Assembly (NCBI GenBank): GCA_016219705.1
Contig: JACRKQ010000030.1
Span: 1 to 36,268 of the forward strand
Reading direction: 5' to 3'
Length of the DNA: 36,268 bases
DNA from: Candidatus Saganbacteria bacterium
GTDB lineage: Bacteria; Margulisbacteria; WOR-1; O2-12-FULL-45-9
Positions 18,360 through 22,325 of the stretch are shown here, piece by piece. The notes under the pieces were generated by a model that saw nothing but the letters and a program-made list of their open reading frames with translations, searched no databases and was not told the origin of the DNA. Position 1 is the first letter of the stretch; the number at the start of each line of letters is the position of its first letter. The translations under genes and the position numbers were made by a program.

Positions 18360-19208
18360 TTAAAGGCCCTGCGGCTGGCTGATCTGCCCCGCGGCAATGT
18401 AGCCCATTAATTTATAGACCATTTTGGCGACGGTAAAATCGGAGGCGATGTCATCGCGGCGAGGAGATAATTCTACGACGTCAAAACCGACAACGTTTTT
18501 GGCGGCGCAAACATTGCGCAGGATTGTCAGGACCTGCGGCCAGAACAAGCCGCCCGGCTCGGGAGTACCCACCGCCGGCACGACTGCCGGATCGAGGACA
18601 TCAACGTCGATCGTGATATAAACATCCGAAGACAACGCCTCCACAATCTGGGTCGTGACAGAAAGCCTATCAGCCCAATGGATGCGCCGGTCTTGCCCTG
18701 ATTTTTGGGCGTAGTCCCATTCTTCCGCCGATAAACTGCGGACGCCGACCTGAACAGCCGGACAGACTTCCAGCACCCGACGCATAACGCAAGCGTGATT
18801 ATTGAGCGAGCCTTTGAAGGTGTCGCGCAAGTCCGCGTGGGCGTCAAGCTGCAGCACCGATAACTGCGAATATTTTTTTCCATAAGCCCTGACAACCGGC
18901 GGCGTGATCGAATGTTCGCCGCCTAAAACGGCGGCAATCTTGTTGGCGTTGAGAATCTTATCTATGACAGCAGAAAGCTGATTTAATGAACAAGGCGCGG
19001 TCGTGTGGACAGGCATTTTTTTGTAAGTTTCAAAATTCAATTCCTGGTCGAACTCTTCCAGATGCTGGGAGGCATGGAGGATCGCTTCCGGACCACGTTT
19101 TGTCCCCTGGCCGTAAGTCGTCGTCGCTTCGTGCGGCACAGGCACAACAATGAATTTTGCCGCTTTATAATCCTTGTATTGGGGGAGAATGTCGAGAAAA
19201 TCAGGCAT
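18360..19208 (-). CDS. speB: Agmatinase (SpeB), ureohydrolase family
   Basis: Agmatinase hydrolyses agmatine to putrescine and urea with a dinuclear manganese site. The 282-residue product shows the metal-binding motifs GGEHS (96-100), DAHADLRD (122-129) and DVDVLDP (201-207). NNHAC (136-140) and GTPEPGG (214-220) are also typical of the agmatinase branch, and DVVELSP follows. I chose the ATG at 19208, which overlaps the speD-like stop by 8 bases. A TTG at 19223 would add five residues and lie further inside that gene. The pairing points to putrescine synthesis, but no conventional arginine decarboxylase lies in the window. Other ureohydrolases such as arginase or guanidinobutyrase are less likely. 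Confidence 0.9.
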   Translation of the reverse strand: MPDFLDILPQYKDYKAAKFIVVPVPHEATTTYGQGTKRGPEAILHASQHLEEFDQELNFETYKKMPVHTTAPCSLNQLSAVIDKILNANKIAAVLGGEHSITPPVVRAYGKKYSQLSVLQLDAHADLRDTFKGSLNNHACVMRRVLEVCPAVQVGVRSLSAEEWDYAQKSGQDRRIHWADRLSVTTQIVEALSSDVYITIDVDVLDPAVVPAVGTPEPGGLFWPQVLTILRNVCAAKNVVGFDVVELSPRRDDIASDFTVAKMVYKLMGYIAAGQISQPQGL

Positions 19209-19650
19209 TGAGGCTACCGACAAACTCGAAGCTGTTGAGAGCTGTTGTGTCCAGCTGGTGCGCCGGCTGGCCGGTTACCAACCCCTGATCTAAAATGGTA
19301 ACTTCCTGGTCAGTCGCCCGAAAAAGTCCTGATAAGGTCTCACAGGCAATGTCGACATCAAAATCATGATTGGCAAAAATATCGACAAAAACACGGGCGG
19401 TGGAGGGGAACGTGTGGATGGAAATATGCGCTTCGGCCGCTAATATTACTCCGCTAACTCCCCATTCCTGCGCCGTTTGTCCCTGATACCGAAAAACATT
19501 GACGGATCCAGGCCTGGCAATGCCAAGTTTTGTCGGTAAGGCTCTTAAGACATCGTCAACAAAAGAGACATCAGTTAATTTTTCCGGAAGACAGCCGAGA
19601 AGATCGAGCAAGAGATGGGAACCGGAGCCATACCTGGTCTGATTGGACAT
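19201..19650 (-). CDS. SpeD-like AdoMet decarboxylase homologue lacking the pyruvoyl serine
   Basis: The 149-residue protein resembles prokaryotic S-adenosylmethionine decarboxylase: GSGSHLLLDLLGC near the start, WGVSGVILAAEAHISIHTFP at about 63-82 and VFVDIFANHDFDVD at 87-100. In active family members the motif is ESH and its Ser self-cleaves to make the pyruvoyl cofactor. Here it reads EAH, with Ala at 74. The usual catalytic Cys (TCGE context) aligns with Asn94. The His of IHT is kept (79). It overlaps speB. The ATG at 19650 begins the recognisable domain; an upstream open extension of 123 codons runs antisense through rpsA and is not coding. It could be a non-catalytic partner, an enzyme with another mechanism, or a decayed copy. 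Its neighbour makes polyamine work likely. Confidence 0.8.
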   Translation of the reverse strand: MSNQTRYGSGSHLLLDLLGCLPEKLTDVSFVDDVLRALPTKLGIARPGSVNVFRYQGQTAQEWGVSGVILAAEAHISIHTFPSTARVFVDIFANHDFDVDIACETLSGLFRATDQEVTILDQGLVTGQPAHQLDTTALNSFEFVGSLNA

Positions 19651-19784: not shown

Positions 19785-21203
19785 ATGACACACGAAGAAT
19801 ATTCCGGCACGAGTTTTGAAAAAAGCAAAGGGGAAGACGAATTTCTGGCTGTGGAATCCTTAATCCAGGAGACCTTGGCCGAAAGCAAATTATTAGAAAA
19901 AAGTGAACCGGCGCCGCCGCCCCCCCCGATCGCCGCGCCAACCGTAAAACCAGCGCCGCAGCCAGCGGCAGAAAAAGCAGCCGTTCCAGCCGCGGCGGCC
20001 AATGCCTATGAAGCGACATTTAAAGAATACCGAGCCGGTGATATTGTAAAAGGCAAAGTTATCAAAATCGATCCCGGCGCCGTGCTGGTTGATATTAATT
20101 ATAAAGCTGACGGCCTTATCCTGCCGGAAGAACTCTCCGACCGGCCCTTTAGCAACCCGGAAGAAATTGTCAAGATCGGCGAGATGATCAACGTTTATAT
20201 CATCCGTATTGAAAACAAGGAAGGCTATGTTGTCCTCTCCAAAAAGCAAGCCGACTATGAAGGGAGCTGGCATCTGGCGCAGGAAGCGCTGAAAAAGAGA
20301 ACTCTCCTGGAAGGTAAAGTTATTCAAGCTGTTAAAGGCGGACTGGTTGTTGACTGCCAGGGCCTGCGTGGTTTTGTCCCCGCTTCCCAGGTGCAAAAAA
20401 GCGGCCAGGAATCGTTGGAAATTTTTAACGGCCAAACCATCGCGGTAAAAATAATCGAGGTCAACCGGCGCCAGGGAAAAATCATCATGTCGCACAAAAT
20501 GGCGGCTGGAGAACAAGAGAAACATCAGTCGAGCAAGATTTTTGATGAATTGGAAGTCGGCCAGATCCGGCGCGGCAAAGTCTCCAGCTTGAAAACTTTT
20601 GGCGCTTTTGTCGACATTGGCGGCGCTGAAGGCTTGATCCATTTAAGCGAACTCTCCTGGAAGAGGGTCAGGCACCCGTCGGAACTGCTGAAAATCGGCC
20701 AGGAAATAGATGTTTTTGTCCTCGGAGTGGACCGGATCAATAGAAAAGTAGCGCTCGGATTAAAAGAATTACAGACTGATCCCTGGGAGCAGGCGAGTGA
20801 ATATTTTAAACCCGGACAAGTCATAAAAGCGAAGATTGTCCGTTTCGCTAAATTTGGCGCGTTTGCCGAAATCGACCATGACCTGGAGGGGCTAATCCAT
20901 ATTTCAGAATTATCAAAAACACCGGTGGAGCGGCCGGAAGACGCGGGGATTAAGATTGGCGATGTTGTTGATGTCAAAATTTTGCGCGTCCAGCAGGCGG
21001 AGCAGAGAATTGGCCTTTCGATTAAGGAAGCGCAGAAACTTAAAGAAAAAGAAGAGCTCAAAGAATCCCAACCGCCGACAGATATTCCGCAAAAAGTGAC
21101 CATCGGCGATATTATCACCCAGAAGGAAAAAAACCGCGCCGAACGCGAAGAGATAGAAGCGGAAGAAATTGAAGAAGCGGCAAAAGAGGAACAACCGACT
21201 TGA
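19785..21203 (+). CDS. rpsA: 30S ribosomal protein S1-like, four S1 domains
   Basis: S1-type proteins bind mRNA on the small ribosomal subunit and assist initiation. The 472-residue protein has an acidic N-terminus and a Pro/Ala-rich linker (about 41-72). Four S1 OB-fold domains follow at about 79-150, 168-237, 253-325 and 338-411. The last two are most canonical (GRKxxLxxFGAFV-like: RGKVSSLKTFGAFVDIGGAE and AKIVRFAKFGAFAEIDHDLE). A charged C-terminal tail completes it. E. coli S1 has six domains, while four is common elsewhere. AAGGAG stands 6 bases before the ATG. The stop overlaps the TTG start of pyrF by 4 bases. The N-terminal proline linker is not usual for S1. Confidence 0.9.
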   Translation: MTHEEYSGTSFEKSKGEDEFLAVESLIQETLAESKLLEKSEPAPPPPPIAAPTVKPAPQPAAEKAAVPAAAANAYEATFKEYRAGDIVKGKVIKIDPGAVLVDINYKADGLILPEELSDRPFSNPEEIVKIGEMINVYIIRIENKEGYVVLSKKQADYEGSWHLAQEALKKRTLLEGKVIQAVKGGLVVDCQGLRGFVPASQVQKSGQESLEIFNGQTIAVKIIEVNRRQGKIIMSHKMAAGEQEKHQSSKIFDELEVGQIRRGKVSSLKTFGAFVDIGGAEGLIHLSELSWKRVRHPSELLKIGQEIDVFVLGVDRINRKVALGLKELQTDPWEQASEYFKPGQVIKAKIVRFAKFGAFAEIDHDLEGLIHISELSKTPVERPEDAGIKIGDVVDVKILRVQQAEQRIGLSIKEAQKLKEKEELKESQPPTDIPQKVTIGDIITQKEKNRAEREEIEAEEIEEAAKEEQPT

Positions 21204-21979
21204 ATTTCCTGTCTCTGTTAGACCGGACTGTTAAGAAAAATAATAGTTTAGTTTGCGTTGGTTTGGATGTCGACATCGCCTCTCTTCCCGCCTCCGCCAA
21301 GACTTTAGCAGAGCGAATTATTTCTTTTAATCAGGGGATCATCAAGGCCACTAAAGATTTGGTTTGCGCTTATAAACCCAACAGCGCTTTTTATGAACAA
21401 TACGGCCTGGCGGGCATCTCCGCTCTGCTGAAAACGATTGAATATATTAAGAGCCAAACTAATATCCCCGTTATTCTCGACGTTAAACGAGGCGATATCG
21501 GCCATTCTTCCGCCGCTTATGCCGCCAGCGCCTTTAAAATTTTTCAAGCCGACGCCGTCACCGTCAATCCTTATATGGGATTTGATTCCCTGGAGCCATT
21601 TTTAAATTATGAAGACAAAGGCGTTTTTATTCTCTGCCTGACCAGTAATCCTGGCGCCAAAGATTTTGAGACTAGTATTTATAAAAACGTCGCTGATAAA
21701 GCCAAAAAATGGAACAAATCTGGCAACCTGGGACTGGTGGTCGGCGCCACCAAACCGGAAGAATTAAAAAAGATCCGCCAAATCGTCCCTGATCTGCCGC
21801 TTTTAATCCCCGGCGTTGGCGTTCAAGGCGGCGACATTGCTGCAACTGTGAAAAACGGGGTCAATAAAAATGGCGGGCGGGCAATAATCAATTCTTCGCG
21901 AGGCATCATTTATGCTCAAGATCCCAGAGCAGAGACGCAAAAACTTCGGGACCAGATCAATGAATATCGAAACTGTTAA
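21200..21979 (+). CDS. pyrF: Orotidine 5'-phosphate decarboxylase (PyrF)
   Basis: PyrF converts OMP to UMP, the last step of de novo pyrimidine synthesis. The 259 residues fit the longer (type 2) PyrF class. Visible motifs are VCVGLDVD near the start, CAYKPNSAFYEQYG, and the catalytic loop DVKRGDIGHSS at about 94-104 with its Lys and two Asp. VNPYMGFDSLEPF, PGVGVQGGD and INSSRGIIYA follow. The start is TTG at 21200, sharing TTGA with the rpsA stop and preceded by GAGG. It overlaps queF by 20 bases. The grouping with rpsA and queF looks like general growth genes rather than a pyrimidine operon. Confidence 0.95.
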   Translation: MNFLSLLDRTVKKNNSLVCVGLDVDIASLPASAKTLAERIISFNQGIIKATKDLVCAYKPNSAFYEQYGLAGISALLKTIEYIKSQTNIPVILDVKRGDIGHSSAAYAASAFKIFQADAVTVNPYMGFDSLEPFLNYEDKGVFILCLTSNPGAKDFETSIYKNVADKAKKWNKSGNLGLVVGATKPEELKKIRQIVPDLPLLIPGVGVQGGDIAATVKNGVNKNGGRAIINSSRGIIYAQDPRAETQKLRDQINEYRNC

Positions 21980-22325
21980 AAACGAATACGTCAACAAAGA
22001 TTATCTGGTCAACATAGAATTCCCGGAATTCACCTGCGTCTGCCCCCGCACCGGCCTCCCCGACTTCGCCGCGATAAAAATTGAATATGCGCCTGATAAA
22101 TTATTGGTTGAGCTTAAATCCTTAAAATTATATTTTGTCTCCTACCGCAATGTCGGGACCTTCCACGAAACTGTGATCAATAAAATTCTCGATGATTTTG
22201 TCGCCGCTTGTAAGCCGCGCCGGGTAAAAATTGTCGGCGAATTTAACGTCCGGGGAGGAATTCACGCAACGGTGACGGCAGAGTTTACAAATAATACGCA
22301 GGAGCAAACGCCACTTCACAGTTAA
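21960..22325 (+). CDS. queF: NADPH-dependent preQ0 reductase (QueF)
   Basis: QueF reduces 7-cyano-7-deazaguanine (preQ0) to preQ1 in queuosine biosynthesis. The short single-domain form (121 residues) is present. FTCVCPRTGLPDFA carries the nucleophile Cys28 and the Asp35, and ELKSLKLYFVSYRNVGTFHE is the family signature for substrate and cofactor binding. The ATG at 21960 lies within the pyrF end, with GGGA about 7 bases upstream. An earlier in-frame ATG at 21912 would add residues read from pyrF and is rejected. The last 41 bases, after the conserved GGIHATVTAEF, overlap the opposing ATPase gene, so the final dozen residues may be a chance extension. Other queuosine genes are not here. Confidence 0.95.
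   Translation: MNIETVKNEYVNKDYLVNIEFPEFTCVCPRTGLPDFAAIKIEYAPDKLLVELKSLKLYFVSYRNVGTFHETVINKILDDFVAACKPRRVKIVGEFNVRGGIHATVTAEFTNNTQEQTPLHS

Follow-up and report, generated by a model that had tools for sequence, protein, structure and literature searches.

What is a SpeD protein doing beside an agmatinase gene when the serine that should become its pyruvoyl cofactor is missing? The question is raised by a gene in the window, the 36,268-nucleotide stretch of DNA analysed here, which belongs to the genome of a WOR-1 (Margulisbacteria) bacterium (G000; 1.47 Mb, 87% complete, a draft assembly of 94 contigs). The reading that we prefer, with a probability of roughly 0.6, is that the gene descends from a SpeD-type arginine decarboxylase (SpeDA), was displaced by PvlArgDC and is now catalytically dead, the ancestral activity and the causal order being the parts that we infer. 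The features concerned are:

18360..19208, minus strand: speB, agmatinase (TIGR01230 3.4e-69, over the cut-off), with the metal-binding motifs LDAHADLRD and DVDVLDP intact
19201..19208, minus strand: 8-bp overlap of the speB start (ATG, 19208-19206) and the speD stop (TGA, 19203-19201), ATGCCTGA
19201..19650, minus strand: speD homologue of 149 aa with the class 1b AdoMetDC fold, lacking both the pyruvoyl-forming Ser and the catalytic Cys
19369..19371, minus strand: Asn94 codon AAT, where the catalytic cysteine (T. maritima C83) would lie
19414..19416, minus strand: His79, equivalent of the processing His68 of T. maritima, retained
19429..19431, minus strand: Ala74 codon GCG, in place of the serine that forms the pyruvoyl group (T. 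maritima S63)
19785..21203, plus strand: gene for a ribosomal protein S1-like product, in divergent orientation to speD; the flank is syntenic in about 16 relatives
21200..22325, plus strand: pyrF and queF, remainder of the conserved divergent flank

The overlap with speB, already pointed out in the first-pass annotation of this DNA, is confirmed at 8 bp; an alternative speB start, TTG, lies at 19223.

Residues and fold of the window SpeD

The speD reading frame starts with ATG and ends with TGA. Residues 12-122 of the product match the Pfam AdoMet_dc profile (PF02675, 1.7e-21), and the score against TIGR03330, the adenosylmethionine decarboxylase equivalog model, is 60.3 bits, below the cut-off of 75.65 bits. 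An AF2 model obtained with 27 sequences in the alignment has a core pLDDT of 90-98 over about residues 11-120, and its best Foldseek matches are the T. maritima SpeD structures 1vr7 (E 1.4e-7, TMt 0.82), 1tmi and 1tlu. By descent and fold the protein is a class 1b AdoMetDC/SpeD homologue, and the earlier description of its fold as well kept is borne out.

The same holds for the two replaced residues on which that description centred. The codons GAA GCG CAT encode E73-A74-H75, giving EAH where the family has ESH, and an alignment of 25 WOR-1 orthologues with 7 outside sequences places Ala74 in the serine column of this motif and Asn94 in the cysteine column, with His75 and His79 preserved. Self-processing of T. 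maritima SpeD is described as requiring residues S63, H68 and C83 (PMC10407285). The window SpeD lacks two of these three: it has neither the ESH serine nor the catalytic cysteine of a functional pyruvoyl SpeD and keeps the processing histidine. A shifted serine replacing Ala74, which the first-pass annotation had named as a possible refutation, was considered and rejected: the nearest one, Ser77, is a serine in many ordinary ESHIS members as well.

The closest structural parallel is the T. maritima S63A protein (PDB 1tmi), which shares with the window SpeD the fold, an Ala at the pyruvoyl serine and the motif EAH, but was made by engineering and retains Cys83, whereas the window protein is natural and has Asn there. 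Because Ala74 is the very change of this non-processing mutant, no pyruvoyl cofactor would be formed by the known mechanism, as the first-pass annotation had argued. The window SpeD is thus very probably dead as a pyruvoyl enzyme, a prediction made from sequence, and with the model it is predicted to be folded yet catalytically dead. An enzyme working by some other chemistry, for example with a carbonyl cofactor derived from another residue or from outside, would be consistent with the retention of the pocket residues His75 and His79, its only favourable evidence; yet the cleavage position holds no Ser, Thr or Cys, the Cys needed for decarboxylation has also been lost, and in this fold the S63A mutant is described as failing to process itself, which makes this reading highly improbable. 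We know of no pyruvoyl enzyme that makes its pyruvoyl group from Ala.

Polyamine genes and a candidate SpeDA ancestry

Protein and Pfam searches recovered no second, Ser-bearing SpeD from G000 (87% complete), and the earlier suggestion that the window protein regulates another SpeD is left without a partner. The genome, at this completeness, also has zero matches to PF01564 (spermidine synthase SpeE), the partner expected in the genome of a bona fide AdoMetDC, and a Pfam search found no arginine decarboxylase of the PF01276 type. The search for an arginine decarboxylase that the first-pass annotation had proposed did return one PvlArgDC on contig 29 (E 9.8e-59) with its canonical VSSIFPPG cleavage site intact; it is unrelated to SpeD, though likewise a pyruvoyl arginine decarboxylase. 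Judged by gene content, this enzyme can supply agmatine for SpeB, and because it is intact and unrelated, the SpeD step would be redundant in G000. Also present are a homospermidine synthase (best PDB match 2ph5, 6.9e-99), which adjoins a decarboxylase of the AR fold whose nearest matches are lysine/ornithine decarboxylases (5gjm, 1.5e-82) and which is read here as ODC, and a deoxyhypusine-synthase-like gene. A search among genome contigs with back-translated patterns gave no close relatives, and a literature search found no published work on WOR-1 polyamines.

A SpeD from Ca. Marinimicrobia, clustered with speY and speB, has been proven biochemically to decarboxylate arginine (PMC10407285). 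The gene order speD-speY-speB occurs in four relatives of the window's genome (G014, G016, G027 and G028), and because it resembles the Ca. Marinimicrobia cluster, the WOR-1 family was probably SpeDA in origin; the 8-bp overlap in the window and the speD-speB pairing across the class show the same clustering. T. maritima CGEDVDPW aligns with WOR-1 SCKDFDTD, which has no Pro in what would be the column of the AdoMetDC-conserved proline. The window SpeD has in common with SpeDA (Li et al. 2023, PMC10407285) the class 1b fold, a genome without detected SpeE and the clustering with speB, joined by speY in some relatives. In contrast, the proven SpeDA keep the serine, and the genomes with anomalous SpeD in that study lacked canonical arginine and ornithine decarboxylases, whereas G000 has another arginine decarboxylase.

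The history that we favour would run as follows. An ancestral SpeDA, pyruvoyl-dependent and of the SpeD fold, would have made agmatine for the co-transcribed SpeB. A second and unrelated enzyme, PvlArgDC, would also make agmatine in many WOR-1 bacteria, and this redundancy would have freed SpeD, with the loss of catalytic residues in several lineages; in that of the window Ser74 would have become Ala, ending self-cleavage and pyruvoyl formation, and Cys94 Asn. At present arginine would be converted to agmatine by PvlArgDC and agmatine to putrescine by SpeB, in parallel with an ornithine route through ODC and homospermidine synthase.

SpeD orthologues across the WOR-1 class

SpeD is present in 26 of the 31 genomes of the class (numbered with G below). 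In most WOR-1 genomes speD adjoins speB and ESH is the usual motif, and the divergent S1-pyrF-queF flank is kept in many; because both the adjacency and the flank are conserved, the odd SpeD copies are orthologues and not strays. At the position of Ala74, where a comparison of orthologues had been called for, the alignment has Ser in most, Ala in G000, G013, G016 and G026, and Gly in G030, so that four genera besides the window's are Ser-less. The cysteine is replaced in G000, G006-G010 (all five), G014, G016, G019, G021, G024, G026 and G030, and in 14 of the 26 SpeDs the catalytic motif is broken at Ser, Cys or both.

These comparisons bear on the possibility that, in a metagenome-assembled genome, the changes are errors of sequencing or assembly. 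The assembly is a draft in 94 contigs and Ser to Ala takes one base; however, Cys to Asn takes two changes in a separate codon, and two of the four other Ser-less genera show the same motif in assemblies named independently. The first-pass annotation would have taken Ser in the orthologues as a mark of error; most do have it, but with the cysteine lost too and the further Ser-less genera an error is hardly credible.

On a tree of SpeB, S1 and PyrF the serine changed in at least three events. G013 and G016 are well-supported sisters (98/91), each with a GCG-encoded Ala, and probably share one loss, which suggests that a Ser-less SpeD outlived the split of the two genera. SpeD was not found in G023 (99% complete) or G029, both of which keep PvlArgDC, SpeB and the deoxyhypusine-synthase-like gene. 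Since these two genomes have SpeB without a detected SpeD, SpeB is not generally dependent on SpeD.

Among the 26 genomes that have a SpeD, a broken one occurs in 13 of the 18 with a canonical PvlArgDC versus one of the eight without (Fisher p 0.009, kinship ignored); when kinship is corrected for, only 2-4 independent contrasts are left, none of them against the trend, and the association is not significant. Five PvlArgDC-bearing genomes have an intact SpeD. The exception among genomes without the enzyme is G007 (Cys to Arg), in which PvlArgDC was not found and which is 80% complete. All five Ser-less SpeDs are in PvlArgDC-bearing genomes, and serine loss taken alone (5/18 vs 0/8) is not significant (Fisher p 0.28). 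G015 was counted among the genomes without canonical PvlArgDC, its divergent match (G015:C21:130429-130950, 4e-27) lacking the cleavage motif VSSI.PP; with its SpeD intact, this genome is a mirror image of the window.

If displacement by PvlArgDC is the right reading, the class would hold several stages in the replacement of a pyruvoyl arginine decarboxylase by a second, non-homologous one, namely SpeD alone, both enzymes, SpeD dead and SpeD gone, and a speD-speB operon would be an unreliable sign of the agmatine source unless the serine and the cysteine are checked.

Several individual loci were set apart. G024, at first sight Ser-less, keeps the Ser and has changed E73 to Gly and H75 to Leu; its SpeD homologue (G024:C29) reads GSL for ESH and Thr for Cys in a frame that is still open, and this degenerate copy is retained in a 96% complete genome in which no SpeB was found. 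The SpeD of G014 (G014:C8:22495-22854) has Arg for Cys and an in-frame TAA that removes the C-terminal tail, the latter being, as read from the sequence, a further sign of decay. An N run inside the frame on G016:C1 links a MinC-like start to the Ser-less SpeD, and the apparent MinC-SpeD fusion was rejected as a scaffolding join. In G007 (C62:4803-5545) speB is split across two frames, perhaps by a frameshift or through misassembly. Spermine_synth Pfam matches in G005, G003, G025, G018 and G011 lie inside open frames of 473-745 aa, far longer than SpeE, and are probably not spermidine synthases.

Constraint, retention and Ser-less SpeDs elsewhere

Terminal branches of SpeD were compared with those of SpeB on the conserved-neighbour tree, parts of which are weakly supported, so that the ratios are indicative. 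The median ratio is 0.67 for intact SpeDs, 2.18 for broken ones (p 3e-4) and 3.80 for the Ser-less (p 0.001), with 2.68 for the window; relative to SpeB, broken SpeDs have evolved about three times faster than intact ones. The window SpeD deviates at 12 of 41 conserved columns, whereas intact copies, when each is left out of the set, deviate at 0-9 and mostly at 0-4; its deviations near the active site include I71A, S74A, S93A, C94N and K95H. At the level of sequence this is relaxation of constraint.

Were all amino-acid change on the window branch neutral, about 8.6 stops would be expected and none is seen (P about 2e-4); across the five Ser-less branches about 40 would be expected, again with none seen. 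Either most of the change came before the losses, or the Ser-less proteins remain under weak selection. Because the reading frames survived more change than pure neutrality predicts, a residual non-catalytic role of the window SpeD is possible; the protein looks like an enzyme between replacement and loss, or one kept for a non-catalytic job.

The second of these alternatives would make the Ser-less SpeD a maintained pseudoenzyme, whose old pocket would bind arginine, agmatine or a polyamine and which, by analogy with the trypanosome AdoMetDC prozyme, would serve SpeB, PvlArgDC or another polyamine enzyme as a non-catalytic subunit or ligand sensor. The open frames of the Ser-less branches, the serine loss probably common to G013 and G016, the conserved position adjoining speB and the confident predicted fold are consistent with it, as is the presence of the AdoMetDC-like N-terminal domain of human spermine synthase among the Foldseek matches. 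The prozyme itself (PMC5201418) is a precedent, being a catalytically dead AdoMetDC homologue of the polyamine pathway; it is, however, a paralogue of class 2 whose role is to activate a live AdoMetDC, and no active SpeD paralogue that could be such a partner was found in G000 (87% complete). The quicker evolution, with conserved residues lost in scattered fashion, also speaks against maintenance, as does the degenerate SpeD of G024 without SpeB. Regulation of SpeB, proposed in the first-pass annotation, is weakened as an obligatory role because related genomes (G023 and G029) keep SpeB without detected SpeD. Maintenance is, on balance, a possible but unlikely account, and displacement by PvlArgDC remains the preferred reading.

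In the literature searched, many subscription papers being outside its scope, no description of a stand-alone Ser-less bacterial SpeD was found. One prokaryotic precedent was found in print, a Victivallis vadensis fusion protein (PMC10407285) whose C-terminal SpeDC domain is defunct. This domain is likewise a SpeD-fold unit whose critical active-site residues are lost and whose self-cleavage is impossible, but it is fused to an active SpeD, whereas the window SpeD stands alone in a genome with no active SpeD found. Should the dead WOR-1 copies prove to be maintained, bacteria would have stand-alone equivalents of the dead AdoMetDC units found in trypanosomes and in prokaryotic fusion proteins.

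A scan of 84,980 genomes for the pattern [D/E/Q][A/G]H...HTFP returned the three WOR-1 copies that it could see, together with a Ser-less family in Pelosinus and one Acidaminococcales genome. In the order of Pelosinus the Ser-less SpeD occurs in 10 of 10 genomes, always as EGH, with an invariant C-terminal stretch (KRGDFGS.SDMKPKI...RRVRDT), and dN/dS among five Pelosinus is 0.01-0.10. This strong purifying selection favours the pseudoenzyme reading in so far as it shows that selection can maintain a SpeD without the serine; it does not show this for the window's copy. The family resembles the latter in being class 1b-like with the serine replaced, and differs in having Gly instead of Ala, strong conservation and a C-terminal extension of its own, and in standing away from speB, in several genomes beside a class 1a-like SpeD. 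That stand-alone Ser-less SpeDs form a recurrent, selected class of bacterial pseudoenzymes, with the WOR-1 copy in the agmatinase operon serving the agmatine branch as a non-catalytic sensor or partner and the copy of the Pelosinus relatives strongly conserved, is a doubtful generalization. The EGH genes of the Pelosinus relatives and Acidaminococcales stand away from polyamine genes altogether, several of the genomes bearing them hold a second, larger SpeD of about 280-300 aa, and the EGH family is possibly more interesting than the window copy.
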